Source of the DNA: Deltaproteobacteria bacterium
GTDB lineage: Bacteria > Desulfobacterota > GWC2-55-46
Length of the DNA stretch: 63,861 nucleotides
Direction: 5' to 3'
Assembly: GCA_020846435.1 (NCBI GenBank)
Contig: JADLDY010000066.1
Coordinates: 1-63,861 of the forward strand
The translations under genes were made by a program, and so were the position numbers. Of the stretch, positions 21,827 to 44,167 are shown in pieces (position 1 is the first letter of the stretch; each line of letters starts with the position of its first letter). Under the pieces are notes generated by a model. The model saw nothing but the letters and a program-made list of their open reading frames with translations. It made no database searches and was not told where the DNA came from.

Positions 21827-21930
21827 AACTGACAGTAAGTAGTTGCAGGGATTGTTCTGGAGTAAGCTTTAGCTTGCAGTACAGGACCTCAATGGCACTT
21901 ATGAATTTGAGAGAAAGGAGGTCCTGAAAA

Positions 21931-22131
21931 ATGGCAAAAGGAAAAGTGAAGTGGTTCAATGAGTCGAAGGGATTTGGCTTCATTGAAAGGGAATCCGGTG
22001 AGGACGTTTTCGTTCATTACACCTCTATCCAGGGTGATGGCTTCAAGACCCTGAAGGAAGGTCAGGCTGTGGAGTTCGACATAGCCAATGACGCGAAAGG
22101 TTCCAAGGCCGTAAACGTGATCCCCCAGTAA
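21931..22131 (+). CDS. csp: Cold-shock protein (CspA family)
   Basis: 66 residues, a single cold-shock domain. RNP1 KGFGFIE and RNP2 VFVHYTSI motifs are intact. Binds single-stranded RNA/DNA and melts RNA structure. The ATG is preceded by AAAGGAGGT at 8 nt, a very strong ribosome site, and followed by its own terminator, so it is a single-gene, highly expressed unit. Confidence 0.97.
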
Positions 22132-22150
22132 TTTAGGGACTCGCAAAAAC

Positions 22151-22185
22151 AAAAGCCCCCACGCAAGTGGGGGCTTTTTTTATTT
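22151..22185 (+). terminator. Intrinsic terminator of the cold-shock gene
   Basis: Hairpin AAAGCCCCCAC-GCAA-GTGGGGGCTTT continuing into TTTTTATTT, 20 nt after the stop codon. Confidence 0.92.
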
Positions 22186-32170: not shown

Positions 32171-32259
32171 CTCGACATTATGCATTCGCGAAGAGAGCGA
32201 GGCAAATGTTTTTTCCAACGCTGAGCAGGCAAAACCCCTCGCCCATACCTTGTTTGCCC

Positions 32260-32288
32260 TTGCCTTTAAAGTGCGCCGCTGTTATCAT
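32260..32288 (+). promoter_or_regulatory. Sigma-70 promoter of ntrB
   Basis: TTGCCT (32260-32265), 17-nt spacer, TATCAT (32283-32288). The expected start, near 32295, falls inside the dyad at 32288-32308. Confidence 0.65.
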
Positions 32289-32308
32289 GTGCCTAATATT
32301 TAGGCACA
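32288..32308. promoter_or_regulatory. Perfect dyad (putative operator) at the ntrB start
   Basis: Nine-base arms TGTGCCTAA and TTAGGCACA separated by TAT. It overlaps the predicted transcription start and the AGG ribosome site 2 nt before the ATG, so it could act as a repressor operator. Core GTGCC-N9-GGCAC is not the classical NtrC site (GCAC/GTGC). Confidence 0.55.
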
Positions 32309-32310
32309 AT

Positions 32311-33387
32311 ATGACCGATACCGTAAAACCTTCATTTTCGTGCGAAGACCTCCTTGAGTCCATCGCCGAGGGCGTTATAGCCATCGACACCGATTCAAGG
32401 ATCTGCGTCTTCAACCAGTCGGCTGAAAAGCTCCTCGAGGTCTCGCGCTCGCTCGTCATCGGCAGGCCGCTCGGCGAATACTTCAAAAGGAACCCGCGCA
32501 TCTCTGAACTCCTCAAAGCCACCCTCGAGGAGGGACGTCTTTTTGCCGAATACGGCGAAAAACTCTTCAGGAGGATAACCGGGGACACCATCCCGGCCGG
32601 CATAACGACGAGCCAGCTCTTCGACGCCGAAGGCAACATCCAGGGCGCGGCCGCCCTCATAAGGGACCTTTCCGGCATAAAGTCCCTTGAGGAAGGCAGC
32701 CTCAGGAAGGAAAGGCTCGCCTACCTCGGCACTTTCGCCGCCAAAGTCGCCCACGAGATAAAAAACCCCTTGAGCGGCATGCGCGGGGCGGCCCAGCTCC
32801 TCTCAAGGAGGATGGCCGACCCAGGGCACAAAGAGTACCTCGAAGTGATAATGAAAGAGGCTGACCGCCTCAACACGATACTGAACGGCATGCTGAATTT
32901 CACCAAGCCCGCCAAGCTGCGCAAAAAGCCCTTCAACATACACAAGGCGCTCGACGCGGTCGCCTTCCTCATGGGAGACGAGAAGCTCTCAATCTTCATA
33001 AGGAGCTACGACCCGTCCATACCCGATATCTCCGGCGACGAGAACCAGCTGAAGCAGGTCTTTTTGAACCTCGTGAAGAACGCGAAGGAGGCCCTCGGGG
33101 AGGGCGGCTCCATACACCTTACGACAAGGGCGATAACCGAATTTCACATCGTCGAGGGCGGAGACAAGGGCAGGATGGTCTCCATCGAAATAAGGGACAA
33201 CGGCTGCGGCATACGACCGGAGGACATGGAAAAGATATTTACCCCGTTTTTCACGACCAAGCACGGAGGCTCAGGCCTGGGCATGGCGATAACCCTCAAC
33301 ATAATAAAAGAACACGGCGGACACCTCAAGATAGACTCGGCCCCTGGCAAGGGGACTTCCGTAACGGTCTATCTGCCGCTGGCGTAA
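32311..33387 (+). CDS. ntrB: NtrB-type PAS histidine kinase
   Basis: 358 residues from the ATG at 32311 (longer frames run back over the promoter). Layout: PAS domain (about 10-125: LLESIAEGVIAIDTDSRICV), dimerisation/H-box with the phospho-His in AHEIKNPLSGMRGAA (about 150), and an HATPase domain (N-box LVKNAKEAL, G1 DNGCGI, F-box IFTPFFTTK, G2 GSGLGMAI). No membrane helix, so a cytoplasmic sensor like NtrB/GlnL, which is read by PII. Directly followed by an NtrC-type regulator and close to two amtB genes, glnK and nirB, supporting a nitrogen role. Confidence 0.88.
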   Translation: MTDTVKPSFSCEDLLESIAEGVIAIDTDSRICVFNQSAEKLLEVSRSLVIGRPLGEYFKRNPRISELLKATLEEGRLFAEYGEKLFRRITGDTIPAGITTSQLFDAEGNIQGAAALIRDLSGIKSLEEGSLRKERLAYLGTFAAKVAHEIKNPLSGMRGAAQLLSRRMADPGHKEYLEVIMKEADRLNTILNGMLNFTKPAKLRKKPFNIHKALDAVAFLMGDEKLSIFIRSYDPSIPDISGDENQLKQVFLNLVKNAKEALGEGGSIHLTTRAITEFHIVEGGDKGRMVSIEIRDNGCGIRPEDMEKIFTPFFTTKHGGSGLGMAITLNIIKEHGGHLKIDSAPGKGTSVTVYLPLA

Positions 33388-33397
33388 AGGACGATCG

Positions 33398-34822
33398 ATG
33401 GGCCCCATAAAAGTACTCATAGCCGACGACGACGAAAGCATACTCTGGGTCCTCAAAAAGCTCCTTGAGGAAAAGGGGCTCTCTGTCGTGAGCGCGAAGG
33501 ACGGCACAGAGGCTTCCAAAGCCCTCTCTGGCGGCGTCCAGCTCGCACTGCTTGACATAAACATGCCGGGCAAGGACGGCCTCCAGCTCCTTACAGAGGC
33601 GAAAGAGGCCGGAAGCGCCGCCTCGTTCATCATGATGACCGCCGAGTCGACCATGAAGAACACGCTGGAGGCCATGAGGCTCGGCGCGTTCGACTACATA
33701 ACCAAGCCATTTGACCTCGGCGAGCTCGAAGTGACGATAGACAAGGCCCTCGAGAACCTAAGGCTCAAGGGCAAAGTCACGGCCTTAACCGAGAGGCTCA
33801 AGGAACACCTCTCGGGAGAGACGGTCTTCATAGGCAAGAGCAAGGCCGTGGAAGAGGTATTCAAGAAGGCCGGCAAGGTCGCGGCCAAGGACGTGACGGT
33901 TTTGATACTCGGGGAGAGCGGCACGGGAAAAGAGCTCCTCGCGCGCATCCTGCACGCGAACAGCGCCCGCTCGGAGGGCCCGTTCATCGCGGTCAACTCG
34001 GCGGCCGTTCCGAAAGATCTGATGGAGAGCGAGCTCTTCGGCTTTGAAAAAGGCGCGTTCACCGGGGCCGTTGAAGCGAAAAAAGGCAAGTTCGAGCTCG
34101 CGGACGGCGGCACGCTCTTCCTCGACGAGGTAGGAGATACGAGCCTTGACCTGCAGGCCCGCCTCCTTCGCGCCATACAGGAAAAAGAGTTCTACCGGGT
34201 CGGCGGCAAAGAGCCTGTAAAGGTAGACGCGCGCATAATCGCGGCCACGAACCATGACCTTGAAAAAGCGGTCACCGAGAAAAAATTCAGGGAAGACCTC
34301 CTCTTCAGGCTCAACGGCATAACCTTCACGCTGCCGCCGCTGCGCGAGCGCAAAGGCGACGTCGCCATCCTCGCGGGCCACTTCCTTGAGAAATTCAAGG
34401 GCGAGTTCAACTCAGGCATGAAAAACCTTTCTCAAAAGGCGCTCGACGCGCTCGAGGCCTACAACTGGCCGGGCAACGTGAGGGAGCTCGAGAACGTTCT
34501 CAGAAGGTCCGTGCTCATGAGCCAGTCTGTTGCCATCACGCCCGAAGACCTTGGCCTGCCTCAGCCGCGCCAGAAAAAAGAGTCTCTGGAGGACATCATC
34601 GCCTCCCGCATAAAGCCCTTCATCGACAAGACCGACCACCGCTCCAATCAGGAGCTCTATGACTTCATCATGCCGTTCATGGAAAGGCCGCTCCTGAGGC
34701 TCGTGCTGGAGAAGACAAAAGGCAACCAGGTGCAGGCTTCCGAGATGCTCGGCATAAACCGCAACACCCTCAGGAAAAAGATCAAAGAGCTCGACATAAA
34801 GCCGGAAAAGTTCAAGTCATGA
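33398..34822 (+). CDS. ntrC: NtrC-type sigma-54 response regulator
   Basis: 474 residues. Receiver domain with phospho-acceptor D53 (LLDINMPGKDG) and K104-type lysine in YITKPFDLGE; AAA+ sigma-54 activation domain with Walker A GESGTGKE, the sigma-54-contacting GAFTGA loop and Walker B GGTLFLDEVG; Fis-type HTH at the C-terminus (QASEMLGINRNTLRKKIKEL) as in NtrC. Starts 10 nt after ntrB. Expected to act on the sigma-54 promoters found here at 44151-44167 and 42742-42759. Confidence 0.93.
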   Translation: MGPIKVLIADDDESILWVLKKLLEEKGLSVVSAKDGTEASKALSGGVQLALLDINMPGKDGLQLLTEAKEAGSAASFIMMTAESTMKNTLEAMRLGAFDYITKPFDLGELEVTIDKALENLRLKGKVTALTERLKEHLSGETVFIGKSKAVEEVFKKAGKVAAKDVTVLILGESGTGKELLARILHANSARSEGPFIAVNSAAVPKDLMESELFGFEKGAFTGAVEAKKGKFELADGGTLFLDEVGDTSLDLQARLLRAIQEKEFYRVGGKEPVKVDARIIAATNHDLEKAVTEKKFREDLLFRLNGITFTLPPLRERKGDVAILAGHFLEKFKGEFNSGMKNLSQKALDALEAYNWPGNVRELENVLRRSVLMSQSVAITPEDLGLPQPRQKKESLEDIIASRIKPFIDKTDHRSNQELYDFIMPFMERPLLRLVLEKTKGNQVQASEMLGINRNTLRKKIKELDIKPEKFKS

Positions 34823-35451
34823 AGCCTGAAGGTTTGACCGGCCTCTACGCGATAATAGACTCTACATGGGTCAGCCTCGCCCAGGCCGGAAGATATACGG
34901 AAGAGCTCGTCAGCGGCGGGGTGCGCGTGATCCAGCTGAGGGCCAAGGATGAAGGCAGCCGGGCAATCCTTGAAGCGGCACGCGCCATGCGCTCAGCAAC
35001 AAAAGACAGGGCCCTGTTCATGGTTAACGACAGGGTCGACATAGCAATCCTCTCAGGGGCTGACGGAGTACACCTCGGGCAAAGCGACATCCCTCTTGTC
35101 GAAGCCAGGAAGCTCATGCCAAACGCGCTCATCGGCGTCTCGACGCATAACCTCGAAGAGGCGACAGACGCAGCCAGACACGGCGCAGACTACATCTCAT
35201 ACGGCCCTATATTCGCTACACAGACTAAAAAAGACGCTGACATTCCCAAAGGCCTCGAAGGACTAAAGGCTCTTGCCCCATCAGTCAACATCCCGATTGT
35301 AGCCATCGGCGGAATCACAGTTGAGACTGCCGCCTCTGTCATCGAGGCCGGGGCCTCTGCTATCGCGGTCATATCAGACATACTCCTTGCCGATGACATC
35401 AAGAGCCGGGCAGTGGAGCTAATATCGAGGATAGGAAGGAAGGGAGCCTAA
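34819..35451 (+). CDS. thiE: Thiamine-phosphate synthase
   Basis: 210 residues, the normal TIM-barrel size. Couples HMP-PP and thiazole phosphate to thiamine phosphate. Markers are VRVIQLRAKDEGSR, NDRVDIAILSGADGVHLGQ, GVSTHNLEEA, YGPIFATQTKKDA and VAIGGIT. Overlaps ntrC by 4 bp (ATGA), an unexpected operon partner for a nitrogen regulator, and overlaps the 3' end of nirB by 4 bp tail to tail. Confidence 0.93.
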   Translation: MKPEGLTGLYAIIDSTWVSLAQAGRYTEELVSGGVRVIQLRAKDEGSRAILEAARAMRSATKDRALFMVNDRVDIAILSGADGVHLGQSDIPLVEARKLMPNALIGVSTHNLEEATDAARHGADYISYGPIFATQTKKDADIPKGLEGLKALAPSVNIPIVAIGGITVETAASVIEAGASAIAVISDILLADDIKSRAVELISRIGRKGA

Positions 35452-37823
35452 GCCCCCTTCCTTCCTTCGCCGCACTCGTCTGTCCATGGGTCCTTTGAAA
35501 GGGCTATCTCCTTTTCGATCCTTTCGCACAGCCCCTTGCGGCCCGCGCCATCCTCAAGCGCCTCTTTCCTTATGTTGGCGAGCCCCCTGCGCTCGACCCA
35601 CTTGAAGGTTCTCTCGCCGTAATGGGCGTCTTCCCTGTAATGCTGCAGGAACGCAGAGACAACCTCGATGGCCTCAGCCCCGGTTTTGACGCTTACGAGC
35701 TTTTCCGCCGCCTTCGTCTCTATGCCGCCGCAGCCTCCTGCATAGACCTCCCAGCCGCCAGCGACGCCGATGATCCCGATGTCTTTAATGCTGCTTTCAG
35801 CGCAGCTCCTCGGACAGCCGTTGACCCCGAGCTTCACCTTGGCGGGCATCCACAAGGCTCCGAACTTTTTCTCCAGCTCTATGCCGAGGCCCATCGAGTC
35901 CTGAGTACCGTACCTGCAGAACTTCTCTCCAACGCAAGTCTTGACCGTCCTTAAGGCTTTGGCGTAGGCAAAGCCCGAAGGCATGCCAAGCTCCTTCCAT
36001 ACGGACTTGAGCTCCTCTTTCGGCACACCCATGAGAGCTATGCGCTGGCCGCCGGTTATCTTGACGAGCGGGACCTTGTGCTTCTCGGCGACAGAGGCAA
36101 TTTTCTTGAGGTCGCCCGGGGTCGTGACGCCGCCGTAGATCCTCGGCACGACCGAGAAGGTCTCGTCCTTCTGTATGTTCGCGTGCATCCTCTCGTTGAT
36201 GAGCCGGGAGGTCGTGTCGTCATTGCTTTCACCCGGCCAGACTACTGACACATAATAGTTGATGGCAGGCCTGCATTTTTCGCACCCGACACCCTGCCAG
36301 CCGAGGATCTCCATCACCTCGCTTACCGACTTGAGCCCCTTCTCACGGATGTTTCTCATGACATCTTCTCGGCTGTAAGCGGTGCAGGCGCACAGGGCCT
36401 GCGAGATGACGGGCTGGAAGCCTGCCCCGAGCGTCTCTTCGAGTATCCTGTCTATCTGTTGGGCGCAACCGCCGCAAGAACCGGAAGCGCCCGTCTCCCT
36501 TTTTATGTCTTCCCTCGTGAAAAGGCCCTTGCTCTCTATGGCCTCGACTATCATCTTTCTTGTCACGCCCTTGCAGCCGCAAACGATGGCGTCGTCAGGC
36601 AGGGCAGCCTTCGACGCGGCCTTGCCTCCGTCCCAGAGCAGGGCAGGGCGCCTTTCCGCCACGTCGTCCCCGGCGGCGAGCAGGTTGAAGAGCTCAGGGC
36701 CCCTTGAGCTGTCGCCGTACATCACGATGCCCTTTATGACGCTTCCTTCGAACAGTATCTTCCTGTAAACCCTCGCCTTCCTGTCAAGGTACTCGACCGA
36801 GTCATCGACGCGAGGGTCGATGTCCCCGGCGGAATAAAGGTCAACGCCGGAGACCTTGAGCCTTGCCGAAGTAGGCATGCTCTTGAAGGGCTTTCTGCCG
36901 TCCCCGGCGAGCTGGTTGGCAACGACCCGCGCCTGGTCGAATATCGGCGCAACGAGGCCGAAGGTCTTTCCCCTGTGCTGGACACACTCTCCGAGAGCGT
37001 AGACAGCAGGGTCATAGGTCTGCATGGTGTCGCTTACGACGATGCCTCTTTCACAGTAAAGATTTGATGCCTTTGCCAAAGCGATATCAGGCATTATGCC
37101 GGCTGACACGAGGACAAGGTCGGCATCCACCGCTTCTCCAGCGGCAAACATTACCTTCTCGACCTTACCGTCGCCTTCGATGGCGGCGGTCTTCGTGTTG
37201 AGAAGCACTTTCATGCCGAGCCTTTCAAGGTCTTCCCTGAGCATCTCAGAGGAGACCTTGTCGAGCTGCCTTTCCATGAGCCTGTCCATGAGGTGCACGA
37301 CAGTCACGTCCATGCCCATTGAAAGAAGAGCGCCAGCCGCCTCGAGGCCGAGGAGCCCGCCTCCGATTATTACCGCTTTTGAGCCGGCTCCCGCGCGCTC
37401 TCTTATCCTTTCACAGTCGTCCGCGCGTCTGAAAGCCACGACGCCGTCGAGCTCAATCCCGGGAACAGGCGGCATGAGCGGCAGAGAGCCAGTCGATATG
37501 ACGAGCCTGTCGTATTGAACGCTTGCGCCGTCCGCCGTAAAGACTTTTTTGCCGGCCCTGTCAATCCTTGTAACAGGAGCGCTGGTGCGCAGGTCGATCG
37601 ACTTTTCCCTGTACCACTCAGAGTCATGGAAGGCGAGGTCTTTGAGGGATTTATCTCCGGTAAGGAGATGAGAGATGAGCACCCTGTTGTACGCGGCATG
37701 CCTCTCCTTGCCAAAGACAGTTATCGAGTACTGGTCCTGGCCAGCCTTCAGAAGCTCCTCCAGAAGGGCGTTCGCGGCCATTCCGTTGCCAATTACTACA
37801 AGCCTTTTCTTGTTTGCGTCCAT
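35448..37823 (-). CDS. nirB: NADH-dependent nitrite reductase large subunit NirB
   Basis: 791 residues. FAD/NAD(P)H module at the N-terminus (VVIGNGMAANALLEEL; AVIIGGGLLGLEAAG), two BFD-like [2Fe-2S] segments (CGCKGVTRKMIVEA...CGGC and CACTAYSREDV...CEKC), a ferredoxin-like half domain and the sirohaem/[4Fe-4S] domain with CVGEKFC and CPRSC. Reduces nitrite to ammonium in the cytoplasm. The small subunit nirD is not adjacent. The ATG at 37823 is chosen (AGGAGG and AAAAGGG upstream); an open frame continues to 37997 but runs through repeat copy C. Last gene of the nitrogen cluster. Confidence 0.93.
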   Translation of the reverse strand: MDANKKRLVVIGNGMAANALLEELLKAGQDQYSITVFGKERHAAYNRVLISHLLTGDKSLKDLAFHDSEWYREKSIDLRTSAPVTRIDRAGKKVFTADGASVQYDRLVISTGSLPLMPPVPGIELDGVVAFRRADDCERIRERAGAGSKAVIIGGGLLGLEAAGALLSMGMDVTVVHLMDRLMERQLDKVSSEMLREDLERLGMKVLLNTKTAAIEGDGKVEKVMFAAGEAVDADLVLVSAGIMPDIALAKASNLYCERGIVVSDTMQTYDPAVYALGECVQHRGKTFGLVAPIFDQARVVANQLAGDGRKPFKSMPTSARLKVSGVDLYSAGDIDPRVDDSVEYLDRKARVYRKILFEGSVIKGIVMYGDSSRGPELFNLLAAGDDVAERRPALLWDGGKAASKAALPDDAIVCGCKGVTRKMIVEAIESKGLFTREDIKRETGASGSCGGCAQQIDRILEETLGAGFQPVISQALCACTAYSREDVMRNIREKGLKSVSEVMEILGWQGVGCEKCRPAINYYVSVVWPGESNDDTTSRLINERMHANIQKDETFSVVPRIYGGVTTPGDLKKIASVAEKHKVPLVKITGGQRIALMGVPKEELKSVWKELGMPSGFAYAKALRTVKTCVGEKFCRYGTQDSMGLGIELEKKFGALWMPAKVKLGVNGCPRSCAESSIKDIGIIGVAGGWEVYAGGCGGIETKAAEKLVSVKTGAEAIEVVSAFLQHYREDAHYGERTFKWVERRGLANIRKEALEDGAGRKGLCERIEKEIALSKDPWTDECGEGRKGA

Positions 37824-37871
37824 GACCCTTTTGCCTCCTTCCTGACAGGTTGAAAAAACTTTGATTTTATT

Positions 37872-37994
37872 CAGGCTGCTCAAAAAATTCCAGATGCGAG
37901 GCGTCGAGGAGCAAGCAACGAGGCGTACTTTACTCGTACGCCTCAGTTGCGAACGACGAAGACAACAAGGCAGATGGTTTTTTTGAGCAGCCTG
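37872..37994 (+). repeat. ~123-bp palindromic intergenic repeat, copy C
   Basis: Starts CAGGCTGCTCAAAAAATTCC and ends TTTTTTTGAGCAGCCTG; central hairpin GGCGTAC(TTTACTC)GTACGCC. Lies in the nirB leader, 49 nt before its ATG. Confidence 0.85.
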
Positions 37995-38002
37995 CAAAAT
38001 GG

Positions 38003-38034
38003 AACGGCGCCCTGGGAGACCCCAAGGCGCCGTT
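38003..38034 (-). promoter_or_regulatory. GGCGCC hairpin with ANTAR P2-like stem, amtB/nirB gap
   Basis: Minus-strand hairpin AACGGCGCC...GGCGCCGTT, followed by CCATTTTGC, so only a weak U tract. Its left arm overlaps AAGGCAACGGCGCCTT (38024-38039), which can fold as AAGGC/GCCTT closing the hexaloop AACGGC, identical to the P2 element in the porin leader. No P1 partner is visible; repeats C and D flank it. It may be an amtB terminator, a nirB leader element, or both. Confidence 0.55.
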
Positions 38035-38060
38035 GCCTTTATTCCTTTACTCCTTTTTCT

Positions 38061-38183
38061 CAGATTGCCTGAAAAGCTCCAGATGCAAGGCGTCGAGGAA
38101 CGAGTAACGAGGCGTACTTTGTTTGTACGCCGCAGTTACGAGAGACAAAGACAACGACGCAGATGGACTTTTCAGGCAACCTG
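38061..38183 (+). repeat. ~123-bp palindromic intergenic repeat, copy D
   Basis: Starts CAGATTGCCTGAAAAGCTCC and ends GGACTTTTCAGGCAACCTG; central hairpin GGCGTAC...GTACGCC. The outer base of this copy is the base immediately after the TAA stop of amtB (38184-38186). Confidence 0.86.
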
Positions 38184-39476
38184 TTAGAGCGAGTAGCCGT
38201 TCTCACTATGCTGCGTGATATCAAGCCCCTGCACCTCGTCGTCCTTGGCAACCCTCAAGCCTACTACAAGATCTACCACCTTGAGTATGACGATGCTCAC
38301 GATGAACGAGTAGAGAGCTGACGCGCCTATCGCTATGAGCTGCTTGCCGAGGAGCGCGGCGCTCCCGAAGATGAGGCCGTCCGCGCCTGCCGGGTTTACC
38401 GCGACCGTAGCGAAGATGCCTGTAGCGATGGCTCCGAACATGCCGCCTACTCCGTGAATGCCGAAGGCGTCGAGAGAGTCATCGTACTTCAGAAGAGGCT
38501 TTATTACAGCGACCGACGCGTAGCAGACAATTCCGGCGGCGAGCCCTATGATTATCGACGAAACCGGGCTGACAAAACCCGCGGCAGGCGTTATTGCGAC
38601 GAGCCCGGCGACTATGCCTGAGGCAAGGCCCAATAGAGTCGGCTTGCCCCTGTGTATCCACTCGACAGCCATCCATGAGAGGCCCGCTCCAGCGGCGGCC
38701 GTGTTGGTCGTGAGGAAGGCGGTCGCCGCGAGTCCGTTCGCGCCGAGCGCGCTGCCAGCGTTGAATCCGAACCAGCCGAACCACAGAAGACCCGCGCCGA
38801 TGACCGTCAACGGGAGGTTATGCGGCGGCATCACTTCAGTAAGATAACCCTTTCTCTTGCCGAGCATCAAAGCCGCCGCAAGGGCCGCGGCGCCCGAGCT
38901 TATGTGGACGACGGCTCCTCCGGCAAAGTCCAGCGCGCCGAGCACCCTGAGCCACCCGCCCACACCCCAGACCCAGTGAGCGACAGGGTCATAGACAAGG
39001 GTCGTCCAGAGCAGCGTGAAGATGAGGAAGGCTGAGAACTTCATTCTCTCTGCGAACGCTCCGGCGATAAGAGCCGGAGTTATCACGGCGAACATCATCT
39101 GGAAGAGCATGAACGCCTGATGAGGGATGGTAGCGGCGTAATCGAGGTTAGGCTCCTGCCCCACGCCTTGAAGCCCGAAGAACTCGAGGCCGCCTATGAG
39201 CCCGAATTTGTCAGGGCCGAAAGAGAGGCTGTAGCCGATGAGTACCCATTGTATGCTTACCGCGCAAAGAACGGCGAAGCTCTGCATGATGGTGCCGAGG
39301 ACGTTCTTTCTCCTGACCATGCCGGAGTAAAAGAGCGCGAGCCCAGGGGCGGTCATGAGGAGCACCAGCGCGGTCGACATGAGCACCCAGGCCGTGTCCC
39401 CGGTGTCTATCCCGGCGGCCAGCGCCGGGGAGGCGCTGATAAGACATATTAGAAGAGCGTATACGAGCTTTGACAT
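38184..39476 (-). CDS. amtB: Ammonium transporter Amt/AmtB (copy 1)
   Basis: 430 residues with an N-terminal signal-like helix (ALLICLISASPALAAG) and about eleven further membrane helices. Amt signatures are ALVLLMTAPGLALFYSGMVR, the twin-His pore region (GAVVHISSGAAALA and DAFGIHGVGGMFGAI) and FGWFGFNAGSALGANG. Conducts ammonium inward and is gated by PII. The ATG at 39476 follows AAGGAG at 7 nt. It lies 72 nt after glnK, the standard glnK-amtB arrangement. The C-terminus (DITQHSENGYSL) is the conserved tail. Confidence 0.96.
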   Translation of the reverse strand: MSKLVYALLICLISASPALAAGIDTGDTAWVLMSTALVLLMTAPGLALFYSGMVRRKNVLGTIMQSFAVLCAVSIQWVLIGYSLSFGPDKFGLIGGLEFFGLQGVGQEPNLDYAATIPHQAFMLFQMMFAVITPALIAGAFAERMKFSAFLIFTLLWTTLVYDPVAHWVWGVGGWLRVLGALDFAGGAVVHISSGAAALAAALMLGKRKGYLTEVMPPHNLPLTVIGAGLLWFGWFGFNAGSALGANGLAATAFLTTNTAAAGAGLSWMAVEWIHRGKPTLLGLASGIVAGLVAITPAAGFVSPVSSIIIGLAAGIVCYASVAVIKPLLKYDDSLDAFGIHGVGGMFGAIATGIFATVAVNPAGADGLIFGSAALLGKQLIAIGASALYSFIVSIVILKVVDLVVGLRVAKDDEVQGLDITQHSENGYSL

Positions 39477-39548: not shown

Positions 39549-39995
<447 letters not shown>

Positions 39996-40134: not shown

Positions 40135-41406
40135 TTATAAGGAGTAGCCGCTCTCCTCATGCTGCGTCAAATCGAGCCCTTGAATTTCCTCTTCGGTCGT
40201 GACCCTTATGCCCATAGTCATGTCGACCACTTTAAGTATCGCGAGCGTGCCTACCGCTGATAAGGCTATCGTTACTAAAGCGCCAATGGCCTGTTTCAGA
40301 AGAAGCCCCGGGTTGCCGTGAAGAAGGCCGGACGCTCCGATGGAAGCGAATATGCCGGTCGCCAGAGTTCCCCATGTACCGGCTATTCCGTGTATGCCGA
40401 AGACGTCGAGCGTGTCGTCGTAGCCGAATCTGGGCTTCAACATCGTAACCGCGACATAACAGAGGCCGCCTCCGACAAGTCCTATCGCCATCGCGGCAGC
40501 CGGGGTCACGAACCCTGCCGCAGGTGTTATCGAGCCGAGCCCGGCGACAGCCCCTGACATCGCGCCAAGCATCGTAGGTTTGCCCCTGTGCGCCCACTCT
40601 GCAAAGGTCCATGTGAGAGTCCCGACAGCGGCCGAGACATTTGTCGCCACGAAAGCCGTGACAGCCACCCCGTCGCTCGCAAGAGCGCTCCCCGCGTTAA
40701 AGCCGAACCAGCCGAACCAGAGTATGCCCATGCCCAGGACAGTGAGAGTCAGGTTGTGAGGGGCCATGAGCTCTCTTGGCCAGCCCCTCCTCCTGCCGAC
40801 GTATATGGCCGCGACCAACGCCGACACTCCAGAACTGATGTGCACCACTATGCCGCCCGCGAAATCCAGGACGCCGAGCTTTTGAAGCCAGCCGCCTCCC
40901 CAGACCCAGTGGCAGAGCGGGTCGTATATCAGAAAAGCCCACAGGATACTGAAGACCACTACGGCTGAAAATTTTATCCTCTCCGCGAAAGCTCCTGTTA
41001 TGAGCGCTACCGTTATCGCCGCGAACATCCCCTGGAACGACATGAACAGGAGGTGCGGGACTGTCCCCTTCGGTTCTACTCCGACACCATTGAGCCCCAG
41101 AAAATCAAGGCTGCCTATGATGCCGCCGAGATCAGGGCCGAAGCTCAAGGTGTAACCGGCCAAGACCCACTGCACAGTTATCAGAGCCAGAAGAAAAAAG
41201 CTGTGCATGATGGTAGAGAGCACGTTCTTCTTTCTCACCATGCCCGCGTAAAAGACCCCGAGGCCTGGCACCATGAACATGACGAGCGCCGTTGAGATCA
41301 TGAGCCACGCCGTGTCTGCCTTGTCTATTGCCGCGGCATCCGCCGCCTCCGCGAACCCGGCCCAGCACCCTGAAAAAAGAGCCGCCAGTAAAATCACCAA
41401 CTTCAT
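40135..41406 (-). CDS. amtB: Ammonium transporter Amt/AmtB (copy 2)
   Basis: 423 residues, with a signal-like N-terminus (LLAALFSGCWAGFAEA) and the Amt helices. Pore motifs are GIVVHISSGVSALVAA and DVFGIHGIAGTWG, plus WFGWFGFNAGSALASDG. Clearly homologous to copy 1 across its length but diverged, so an older duplication. ATG at 41406 has AGGAGG at 6 nt. It lies 97 nt downstream of the porin; the gap can fold (CAGGCC...GGCCTG) but has no U-tract terminator, so porin and amtB may be co-transcribed. Upstream of the glnK attenuator. Confidence 0.95.
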   Translation of the reverse strand: MKLVILLAALFSGCWAGFAEAADAAAIDKADTAWLMISTALVMFMVPGLGVFYAGMVRKKNVLSTIMHSFFLLALITVQWVLAGYTLSFGPDLGGIIGSLDFLGLNGVGVEPKGTVPHLLFMSFQGMFAAITVALITGAFAERIKFSAVVVFSILWAFLIYDPLCHWVWGGGWLQKLGVLDFAGGIVVHISSGVSALVAAIYVGRRRGWPRELMAPHNLTLTVLGMGILWFGWFGFNAGSALASDGVAVTAFVATNVSAAVGTLTWTFAEWAHRGKPTMLGAMSGAVAGLGSITPAAGFVTPAAAMAIGLVGGGLCYVAVTMLKPRFGYDDTLDVFGIHGIAGTWGTLATGIFASIGASGLLHGNPGLLLKQAIGALVTIALSAVGTLAILKVVDMTMGIRVTTEEEIQGLDLTQHEESGYSL

Positions 41407-41503: not shown

Positions 41504-42589
41504 TTAAAAGTGGTACACGGCGTTGACGCCTAAAGTGTCCTGCGTATCCGAGACGCTCGCGCCCTTGTCGAATGAATCCTTGTTGGACTCGTCGTGGCGG
41601 TACTCGGCCCGCACTACGAGGTTGTCGTTGATTGTGTACTCGGGCGTAAGCGTCACCTCCCAGAGGTCCTGCGCAGTACCGGTCCTGGCGCCTTCATTGT
41701 CAGAGAAAACCTCTGCCCTCAGGTTCATGGCGAATTTTTCGCTCACCGCGTACCTGGCATAACCCGCGACCCCTGTCCACGTGCTGTCGCCGATTGAGGG
41801 CACATTATCCTCGGAGCCGTAAACGTAATCGGCCTTGAGGGTGAGAGCGCCGAAGCTCTTCGAGAGGTTCACGTTGAAAAGGTGCCTGGTATCGTTCGCT
41901 TCTGTGCCTGCCATGTACTTGAGGTTTACCGTCATATCCGGCAGCGGGGTTATTATCGCGTGCGCGTGGAACGACTTCGAGTTGTTGTTGTCCTTCACGT
42001 TGTCCCAGCCGTTCACGACCGCGCCGGAGAGCGTGAACATGTCACCCACCTTGTAGGTCGCCCTCAGGCCCGTGTGCGTAAAGGGTATGGAATAGTAAAA
42101 GAGGAACGAGCGCGAGTAGTTCAGGTTCCAGTCCTCGTAGCCCTCTATCACCTCGAGGCCGTGGTCTGTGACGAACTTTCCGAAGTCGAGCTTGAGGCCG
42201 CTGCCGACAGGGGCCACATAGGAGATATAAGCCTGGCGCACGTCAAAGTCATCAGAGCTCGCGGCGCCTGTTGAGTGAATCGCCTTTGGCACTGTGTAGC
42301 CGAAGTTGAGGTCAAGCCTGAAGCCCGCTTCCCCTGCATTGGCCGCGTCCTTGTGGAATGCGAGCTGCGCGAGCTCCAGAGCGAAGCTGTTGTGAGCGTC
42401 GTTGAAAGGCCTCAGGTTTATCGCCCTTGTGTGCGGCTCGTTGAAGTTGTAGTTATACCCGGCCGAGAGGGCCCCGTTTATCTGGACATCCTTCAATACG
42501 TCCGCAACCGTCAGTGCGTCCGCTGCCAGCGCCTGTCCAGAGGAAAAAATCAGGCCGCAGGCGGCCAATGCTATCGCGCTTCTCTTCAT
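41504..42589 (-). CDS. Outer-membrane beta-barrel porin (BBP2/OmpL-like)
   Basis: 361 residues, with a signal peptide (IALAACGLIFSSGQALAAD) and then a barrel of alternating strands ending in the outer-membrane terminal Phe (VNAVYHF). The pattern KDVQINGALSAGYNYNFNEP, GFRLDLNFGYTVPKAIH, LDFGKFVTDHGLEVIEGYED and FTHTGLRATYKVGD is that of the putative beta-barrel porin-2 family. Substrate unknown. Placement directly before amtB2-glnK-amtB1-nirB and control by a sigma-54 promoter plus ANTAR leader suggest uptake of a nitrogen source. Confidence 0.88.
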   Translation of the reverse strand: MKRSAIALAACGLIFSSGQALAADALTVADVLKDVQINGALSAGYNYNFNEPHTRAINLRPFNDAHNSFALELAQLAFHKDAANAGEAGFRLDLNFGYTVPKAIHSTGAASSDDFDVRQAYISYVAPVGSGLKLDFGKFVTDHGLEVIEGYEDWNLNYSRSFLFYYSIPFTHTGLRATYKVGDMFTLSGAVVNGWDNVKDNNNSKSFHAHAIITPLPDMTVNLKYMAGTEANDTRHLFNVNLSKSFGALTLKADYVYGSEDNVPSIGDSTWTGVAGYARYAVSEKFAMNLRAEVFSDNEGARTGTAQDLWEVTLTPEYTINDNLVVRAEYRHDESNKDSFDKGASVSDTQDTLGVNAVYHF

Positions 42590-42628
42590 AATCTCAATAC
42601 CCCCGCTTTTTATAGAGAGCGCCTCTTG

Positions 42629-42670
42629 AAAAAAAGGCGCCTTGCTCTTCGTATGGAAGAATAAGGCGCC
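42629..42670 (-). terminator. Attenuator in the porin leader
   Basis: Minus-strand hairpin GGCGCCTTATTCTTC...GAAGAGCAAGGCGCC followed by seven T, ending 39 nt before the porin ATG. The 5' arm GGCGCCTT is also the 3' part of the P2 hairpin, so the two structures exclude each other. Confidence 0.88.
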
Positions 42671-42717
42671 GTTGCCTTCAGTTGATTTTATTATCCTGCG
42701 GTTACTCCGATGTAACC
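42663..42717 (-). promoter_or_regulatory. ANTAR-binding RNA leader element (P1 + P2) upstream of the porin
   Basis: P1 (42700-42717): GGTTAC/GTAACC closing hexaloop ATCGGA. P2 (42663-42678): AAGGC/GCCTT closing hexaloop AACGGC. Both loops have A at position 1 and G at 4, the recognition pattern of ANTAR-domain antiterminators (NasR, EutV, AmiR types). The linker is 21 nt. P2 formation removes the terminator 5' arm. An ANTAR response regulator is encoded 1 kb upstream. Confidence 0.85.
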
Positions 42718-42741
42718 ATGCTGCTCTTGATTGATTTCATA

Positions 42742-42759
42742 TTGCAACACGGGTGCCAA
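42742..42759 (-). promoter_or_regulatory. Sigma-54 promoter of the porin operon
   Basis: Minus-strand TTGGCACCCGTGTTGCAA: GG and GC separated by exactly 10 nt, and TTGGCAC...TTGCA matching the -24/-12 consensus throughout. Start expected near 42732, giving a leader of about 140 nt that contains P1, P2 and the attenuator. Confidence 0.88.
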
Positions 42760-42787
42760 CTTCAATTCCCGTGTTTTTCCCGCATAT

Positions 42788-43552
42788 TCAATGGCAGGAA
42801 CAGCACGAACTGCCTTTTTTTAGGGCAGAGCCTGCCTCAAGTGCCTGTTTTTCAACCATGCGCATGAATTTGGCGGCAAGCGCGCCGCCCATCCTGTTAA
42901 GCTCTTCTATGCAAGAAGGCGTCTCGGCGATTATCGCCTTCGGGTCGACCTTGCCCTTCAAGGCCGCGAGCTCGTCCTTGTTCAATTCGATCCACTCCCT
43001 TACCATCTCTTCAGTGACCTCGAAATGGAACTGTATGCCGTAGGCGCAGGGCCCGGCCTTTATGACCTGGTTAGGGAACAGATCGCTTGAGGCGAGCATG
43101 AGAGCGCCCTTTGGCACATCGAATGTGTCGCCGTGCCAGTGGAAGGCCCTGAACTTGTCCGGGATGCCGAGAAAGAGAGAATCGTCGTCAGCGTCTTCGG
43201 TGAGCGTGACGTCGTGCCAGCCTATCTCCTTTGCGTTGCCCTTGTAGACCCTGGCTCCGGCCGCCTTGGCGAGGAGCTGCGAGCCGAGGCATATGCCGAG
43301 CATGGGGACCCTTTTCTTGAGCGCGTCCTCTATAAGCCTCACTTCATTCCTGATGAAAGGATACTCCTCTTCCTCGTAGACGCCCATAGGCCCGCCGAGC
43401 ACGATGAGGCCGTTGTAGCCGTCCATGCGCTTTGGGAGTGCATCTCCCCTGAAGAGGTCAACGTACTCGACAAGCGCTCCGCTCTCGATCGTCCTCTTCA
43501 TGACACCGAGCCCTTCGTGGGCCACATGCCTTATGACCAGCACCCTTGACAT
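42788..43552 (-). CDS. Class I glutamine amidotransferase-like protein
   Basis: 254 residues, GMP-synthase-like GATase fold without a synthetase domain. The catalytic triad is intact: C88 in LGICLGSQLLA, H176 and E178 in YGIQFHFEVTEE. YNGLIVLGGPMGVYEEEEYP is the oxyanion region. Stand-alone members release ammonia from glutamine or gamma-glutamyl compounds (for example gamma-glutamyl-polyamine hydrolysis). A cysteine-rich tail (CCSCH) ends the protein, unusual for the family. It starts 9 nt after the ANTAR regulator stop, so it shares its sigma-54 promoter; the acceptor or substrate is unknown. Confidence 0.87.
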   Translation of the reverse strand: MSRVLVIRHVAHEGLGVMKRTIESGALVEYVDLFRGDALPKRMDGYNGLIVLGGPMGVYEEEEYPFIRNEVRLIEDALKKRVPMLGICLGSQLLAKAAGARVYKGNAKEIGWHDVTLTEDADDDSLFLGIPDKFRAFHWHGDTFDVPKGALMLASSDLFPNQVIKAGPCAYGIQFHFEVTEEMVREWIELNKDELAALKGKVDPKAIIAETPSCIEELNRMGGALAAKFMRMVEKQALEAGSALKKGSSCCSCH

Positions 43553-43561
43553 AGCCGCCCC

Positions 43562-44137
43562 CTACCTGCCTTTATCGAACGCCATGATGATGACCTCGGC
43601 GACCTCGGCCATCGACTTCCTCTTGTCCATGCTTATCTTTCTTATCCGCGTGAAAGAGTCCGCCTCGGAGAGCCCATCTCTCTCCATGAGGAGCCCCTTG
43701 GCCTTCTCGATGAACTTTCTCGCCTGTATCGTGTTCTTGAGCTCTTCGTTCTCTTTGCGGAGCTCCACGAACTCCCTGAACCTCGTTATGGCGAGCTCGA
43801 CGGCAGGCGCTATCTCCTCGGCTCTCACCGGCTTCACGAGATAGGCCATGACCCCTGCCTCGGCCGCCTTTTTTATCGTCTCCTCGTCGTCGCAGCCGGT
43901 AAGGAGCACTATCGGCGTGGGGCAGCTCCTGCCAATTTCAGCGGCGGCCTCTATACCGTCCTTGCCAGGCATCTTAACGTCCATTATCAGGAGGTCAGGC
44001 AGGTATTGCCTGCATATCGCGAGCGCCTCTGAGCCGTCCGTGCCCTCGGCAACGACTTCGAGCCCCGCGTCCTCGAGGAAGCCTTTCAATATGAGTCTTT
44101 CATTCGGATTGTCGTCTACTACGGCTATTCTTCTCAT
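43562..44137 (-). CDS. REC-ANTAR response regulator (RNA-binding antiterminator)
   Basis: 191 residues. Receiver domain (1-115) with D8/D9, phospho-acceptor D53 (IMDVKMPGKDG) and K102 (YLVKP), a coiled linker (FREFVELRKENEELKNTI) and a C-terminal ANTAR domain (about 130-188: ARKFIEKAKGLLMERDGLSE, then RKISMDKRKSMAEVAE). Such proteins dimerise on phosphorylation and bind paired hexaloop RNA hairpins to block termination. The ATG at 44137 is only about 3 nt after the start expected from the sigma-54 promoter at 44151-44167, with no ribosome site, so translation would be nearly leaderless. Its cognate kinase is not adjacent. Targets are probably the leaders at 42663-42717 and 39952-39994. Confidence 0.93.
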   Translation of the reverse strand: MRRIAVVDDNPNERLILKGFLEDAGLEVVAEGTDGSEALAICRQYLPDLLIMDVKMPGKDGIEAAAEIGRSCPTPIVLLTGCDDEETIKKAAEAGVMAYLVKPVRAEEIAPAVELAITRFREFVELRKENEELKNTIQARKFIEKAKGLLMERDGLSEADSFTRIRKISMDKRKSMAEVAEVIIMAFDKGR

Positions 44138-44150
44138 GCATTGATACAAT

Positions 44151-44167
44151 AGCAATTAAAGTGCCAA
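44151..44167 (-). promoter_or_regulatory. Sigma-54 promoter of the ANTAR regulator-GATase operon
   Basis: Minus-strand TTGGCACTTTAATTGCT: GG-N10-GC spacing exact, consensus at TTGGCAC and TTGC. Expected transcription start near 44140. Confidence 0.85.

Follow-up and report, generated by a model that had tools for sequence, protein, structure and literature searches.

How is an outer-membrane porin gene that stands at the head of a run of ammonium-uptake genes regulated, and what part would be played by the structured RNA preceding its coding sequence? We report a computational analysis of such a locus on a deltaproteobacterial contig of 63,861 nucleotides (JADLDY010000066.1, assembly GCA_020846435.1), the whole of which is called the window in what follows. 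We conclude that the porin leader is very probably an ANTAR-responsive transcription attenuator heading a nitrogen-scavenging operon. The protein-coding genes concerned are the following.

43562-44137 (-): response regulator with a C-terminal ANTAR domain (EutV/Rv1626-like; PF00072, PF03861)
42788-43552 (-): class-I glutamine amidotransferase
41504-42589 (-): BBP2/OmpL-like outer-membrane porin, 361 aa (PF07642, E=8.4e-75)
40135-41406 (-): ammonium transporter Amt1 (PF00909)
39549-39887 (-): P-II protein GlnB/GlnK
38184-39476 (-): ammonium transporter Amt2 (PF00909)
35448-37823 (-): nitrite reductase large subunit NirB (TIGR02374, 835.6 bits)

The AlphaFold model of the porin has 16 strands at a mean pLDDT of 81.9, and its best PDB matches are themselves porins (OmpT, VhChiP and PorB). 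The leader is located on the minus strand between the amidotransferase gene and the porin gene and comprises five elements.

42741-42759 (-): sigma-54 -24/-12 promoter of the porin operon, TTGGCACCCGTGTTGCAAT at 42759-42741, with exact GG-N10-GC spacing
42700-42717 (-): P1 hairpin, 6 bp stem GGTTAC/GTAACC, loop ATCGGA
42679-42699 (-): P1-P2 linker, 21 nt
42663-42678 (-): P2 antiterminator hairpin, 5 bp stem AAGGC/GCCTT, loop AACGGC
42629-42670 (-): intrinsic terminator, in which GGCGCCTT (42670-42663) pairs with AAGGCGCC (42643-42636), followed by U7 at 42635-42629

An earlier note, made from the letters of the DNA, had described this promoter, both hairpins with their hexaloops, the overlap of P2 with the terminator, the U7 run and the 39 nt from the end of that run to the porin ATG (42589-42587); all are confirmed base for base, and all are on the minus strand, the note having named no strand. 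The arm common to P2 and the terminator is 8 nt long and the two structures are mutually exclusive; folded alone, the leader adopts P1 and the terminator (z -2.38). The hallmark of an ANTAR RNA is a pair of hexaloop hairpins, each with a stem of at least 3 bp and with A at loop position 1 and G at position 4, and the porin leader has both hairpins, with A1 and G4 in each loop. When the leader was shuffled 20,000 times with its dinucleotide composition preserved, two A1/G4 hairpins with stems of at least 5 bp arose together 15 times, and never with an overlapping terminator; the latter combination occurs once in the real window and in none of 30 whole-window shuffles. The earlier note had held that an active promoter between terminator and ATG would speak against its reading. 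No good one is seen by sequence scan, the search of this interval for a sigma-70 promoter giving one weak site (9/12) near the ATG, at a shuffle mean of 0.4. An Rfam search of the window at gathering and relaxed thresholds returned no family matching an ANTAR leader. At 21828-22181 (+) the window has an Rfam match to the cspA thermoregulator, of 80.2 bits, just above the cut-off of 78.

Which protein would read this RNA? The regulator encoded upstream matches the EutV structure 6wsh (E=1.2e-37), and its receiver domain carries, as read from the sequence, the usual phosphorylation-site motifs. When the ten EutV residues named as RNA contacts (PMC8934654) are compared, seven are identical in the regulator (R142, K143, K147, K149, E160, R168 and R175) and three are changed (Y164F, N173D and R177S). 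The genome has four ANTAR genes, two of them full-length response-regulator ANTARs, and because the second of these is encoded elsewhere (contig C58, next to hydG) we infer the cognate protein from gene order. The second regulator could itself be the acting protein, the porin leader still being an ANTAR RNA, the more so as most relatives likewise have at least two ANTAR matches; we nevertheless consider this unlikely, for the first leader stands directly behind the ANTAR-amidotransferase pair in more than 30 clusters, and a search around the C58 gene and near the other ANTAR genes of the genome gave no clear dual hairpin. The regulator encoded upstream thus remains our preferred partner of the leader. 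The amidotransferase, whose gene in every case separates the ANTAR gene from the leader, might sense glutamine as a partner of the regulator.

Two further features bear on the initiation of transcription.

44149-44167 (-): perfect sigma-54 promoter preceding the ANTAR gene, with transcription predicted to begin about 3 nt before the ATG
32206-34822 (+): NtrB-like kinase and NtrC-like sigma-54 activator (ntrC TIGR01818, 495 bits, below the equivalog cut-off of 558.6)

Across both strands of the 63.9-kb window only two sites score at least 22/24 against the sigma-54 consensus, one in the porin leader and the other upstream of the ANTAR gene. In the latter the T of TGGCAC lies 29 nt before the ATG, a spacing of 28-30 nt that is kept in about 20 relatives (38-50 nt in family f13), and because the site is so close to the ATG the regulator mRNA should be leaderless. 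The porin promoter is kept in most relatives and absent in genus g6; since g6 retains the promoter before the ANTAR gene, the operon there probably begins farther upstream. The presence of the predicted promoter and its conservation speak for sigma-54 control of initiation. The rpoN gene was not found in this 88-contig assembly, which most likely reflects an assembly gap, and is present in 38 of 40 relatives. The earlier note had proposed that porin transcription is gated twice, by NtrC/sigma-54 at initiation and by the ANTAR regulator thereafter. The conserved sigma-54 promoter and the ANTAR gene upstream, with the amidotransferase between them and the order conserved, support this, but for NtrC as the activator we infer the role. 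A conserved GGCA...GGCA block (window 42790-42860, -) was seen by eye some 100 nt upstream of the promoter of the porin; it overlaps the amidotransferase stop codon and is a candidate enhancer site, no classical NtrC palindrome being established there.

Comparative evidence from the relatives, which are uncultured Deltaproteobacteria such as GWA2_54_12, indicates that the predicted ANTAR-type switch before the porin is real: about 30 related genomes keep it, and mutations in it compensate one another. The earlier note had made its proposal depend on stem covariation and fixed loop A1/G4 in orthologous leaders, and both are found. An unconstrained RNAalifold run on 14 whole leaders gives a consensus of exactly P1 and the terminator, with UA, CG and AU exchanged in P1, and 11 porin leaders score 0.233 for covariation against 0.166 in shuffles. 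In 45 distinct P1/P2 sequences from three slots, 97.0% of cells are paired and double changes are seen in 8 of the 11 pairs, namely all six of P1 and two of P2. None of 500 shuffles attained any of five measures in this set; as its rows are interrelated, these shuffle counts should not be read as probabilities. The three innermost pairs of P2 are invariant, as expected because this arm must pair with two partners. Position 1 of the loop is A in 51 of 53 leaders for P1 and in all 53 for P2, and position 4 is G in 52 and 53, respectively; these counts and the covariation are partly selected, because many rows of the 45- and 53-leader sets came from a scanner that demanded A1, G4 and pairing. The less biased evidence is the RNAalifold consensus together with the matches of R1, a covariance model built from 11 porin leaders, outside its training genomes, where it found leaders in the same place behind the ANTAR-amidotransferase pair. 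A phylum-wide R1 search gave no matches outside the class, which is no evidence of absence because the model is tuned to its own lineage.

These data also bear on whether an ANTAR protein is needed at all. The leader might be an ordinary intrinsic terminator or attenuator that acts constitutively, with P1 and the letters of the loops incidental, and it is true that folding alone yields the terminator and that ANTAR binding is here a prediction. P1, however, is unneeded for termination and yet covaries in all six of its pairs, the loop letters are kept in both hairpins, and the ANTAR gene lies upstream in the same order across the class, and we therefore regard this explanation as very unlikely. 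That ANTAR binding acts instead on the translation or stability of the porin message is most improbable: Ramesh et al. do describe ANTAR RNAs near ribosome sites (PMC3369931) and the first leader of one relative (L127) shows no terminator, but in about 49 of 53 leaders the P2 arm also belongs to a T-tailed terminator, and the ribosome site is some 30 nt downstream.

The preferred reading, attenuation relieved by an ANTAR protein, is supported by genus g9, in which the porin stands alone away from the ANTAR cluster, keeps its sigma-54 site and has no dual-hairpin motif. It is weakened by the 21-nt linker, the failure to find rpoN, the second response-regulator ANTAR and the first leaders of two relatives, L127 and L132, in which no overlapping terminator is visible. 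Under nitrogen limitation, sigma-54 holoenzyme with an enhancer-binding activator, presumably NtrC-like, would start transcription at about 42732. Without active ANTAR protein the nascent RNA would fold into P1 and the terminator (42670-42629) and transcription would stop before the porin. Once phosphorylated, the response regulator encoded upstream would dimerise and its ANTAR domains would bind the P1 and P2 hexaloops, as in EutV; bound P2 would withhold the terminator 5' arm, and polymerase would then read through the porin, Amt1, a second attenuator, GlnK and Amt2, and onward.

R1 finds two more sites in the window, of which the first is that second attenuator.

39910-39993 (-): second ANTAR-type leader, before glnK; P1 GGGCAC/GTGTCC with loop GCTGCT, P2 AAGGC/GCCTT with loop AAAGGC, overlapping terminator
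37996-38039 (-): incomplete third leader, upstream of nirB; P2 and a weakly U-tailed terminator, no recognisable P1

The glnK leader has G rather than A at position 1 of its P1 loop. The order of the cluster is ANTAR regulator, amidotransferase, leader, outer-membrane protein, Amt, leader, GlnK, Amt, leader and NirB, the third leader being partial in this genome; more than 30 genomes of the class share this order, with some losses and rearrangements. On another contig (C74) there is a complete leader (L114:3946-4003; R1 E=3.7e-7) with its own sigma-54 site; it precedes the gene of a 262-aa exported protein, a member of the family found in place of the porin in relatives, and upstream of the leader is an apparent 3' end of an amidotransferase gene. 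Judged by its sequence, this locus (L114:3750-4864) looks like a duplicated regulatory cassette. The genome also contains an interspersed inverted-repeat element of about 110-120 nt with core GTACGCCTCRTTNCTYGYTCCTCGACGCC (54 matches), copies of which lie at window 37850-38190, 15746 and 48597; the nirB leader has a copy on either side, one of which may have taken the place of the leader's P1.

The distance between the hairpins deserves separate consideration. In EutV, natural linkers are 5-12 nt and function is lost at 14 nt or with 20 nt added (PMC3369931, PMC8934654). The porin leader, at 21 nt, lies outside the 5-12 nt range, a requirement shown for EutV only, and the published definition of the ANTAR motif permits a variable linker, so that 21 nt does not exclude membership. 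First-leader linkers span 9-52 nt in relatives (median 20) and those of later leaders 4-14 nt (median 10), and in each of the 17 genomes that have several leaders it is the first whose linker is longest. Strong hairpins that would shorten the linker are present in L128 and L135, where it is very long; a linker hairpin as a general means of shortening the P1-P2 distance was rejected, as strong hairpins are confined to these two. Two explanations offer themselves: that these ANTAR dimers tolerate a greater distance, or that the first leader works as a weaker switch with a higher threshold. The serial attenuators might form a graded ladder read by one ANTAR protein: the first leader always has the longest linker, very long linkers fold back on a hairpin of their own, and the outer-membrane, inner-membrane and assimilation steps would each open at a different level of active regulator. 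We offer this tentatively and think it rather doubtful; if it were true, ANTAR spacing rules would be tunable and not fixed as in EutV. The natural linkers of 9-52 nt are in any case material for testing how two distant hairpins are read by an ANTAR dimer, a question that the EutV model does not answer.

What the first leader controls varies among the relatives. The slot behind it is occupied by the BBP2 porin in the host's own genus, most g6 genomes and g11, by an exported protein of about 260 aa (consensus ATPSTTYWTPATSDIQPYG) in many others, and in two order-level relatives by a putative porin of the TorF/Gcw_chp type. In the genomes G004 (contig C88) and G011 an Amt follows the leader directly. 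The ~260-aa family has no Pfam or NCBIfam match, and PDB profile searches with it and with the porin gave no sequence relatives; its signal peptide and aromatic C-terminus suggest that it forms a barrel. Three unrelated outer-membrane families, one of them a predicted barrel, thus appear to occupy the slot. That the switch is conserved while the channel is replaced argues that outer-membrane uptake is itself a regulated step of ammonium scavenging, and the BBP2 porin is a candidate channel for it. BBP2 porins also adjoin Amt and/or P-II genes in Acidobacteriota, Omnitrophota, a Gemmatimonadetes MAG and Nitrospira (L064, L066-L069, L074, L079-L081), with no dual hairpin seen within 360 nt upstream of the porins in these groups outside the class; the association of porin and ammonium genes is therefore old and widespread, and the ANTAR leader characterises this lineage.

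The earlier note had singled out a porin as an unusual ANTAR target. A search of the open-access literature found no such report, and the main text of PMC3369931 names no porin or outer-membrane target; the porin is nevertheless less isolated than the note implied, since it heads an Amt/GlnK/NirB cluster with further leaders. The regulons predicted by Ramesh et al. in 2012 include P-II, ammonium transporters, nitrite reductase and nitrogenase (PMC3369931), so that GlnK, Amt and NirB belong to target classes already listed. ANTAR control of these genes is a prior prediction; what the present locus adds to this known RNA-based nitrogen switch is a target of a new sort, the outer-membrane channel. 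NasR/nasF of Klebsiella and AmiR/amiE of Pseudomonas share the RNA motif class and the nitrogen theme (PMC3369931), and differ from the porin leader in their sensory partners and targets. Closest are the EutV-controlled eut leaders of Enterococcus faecalis (PMC3369931, PMC8934654), which likewise have two A1/G4 hexaloop hairpins with P2 overlapping an intrinsic terminator, several attenuators per operon and a response-regulator ANTAR protein, most of whose RNA contacts are kept here. In contrast to eut, the present system has an outer-membrane porin/ammonium operon as its target, a sigma-54 promoter, a first linker of 21 nt and, beside the regulator, an amidotransferase in place of a kinase.
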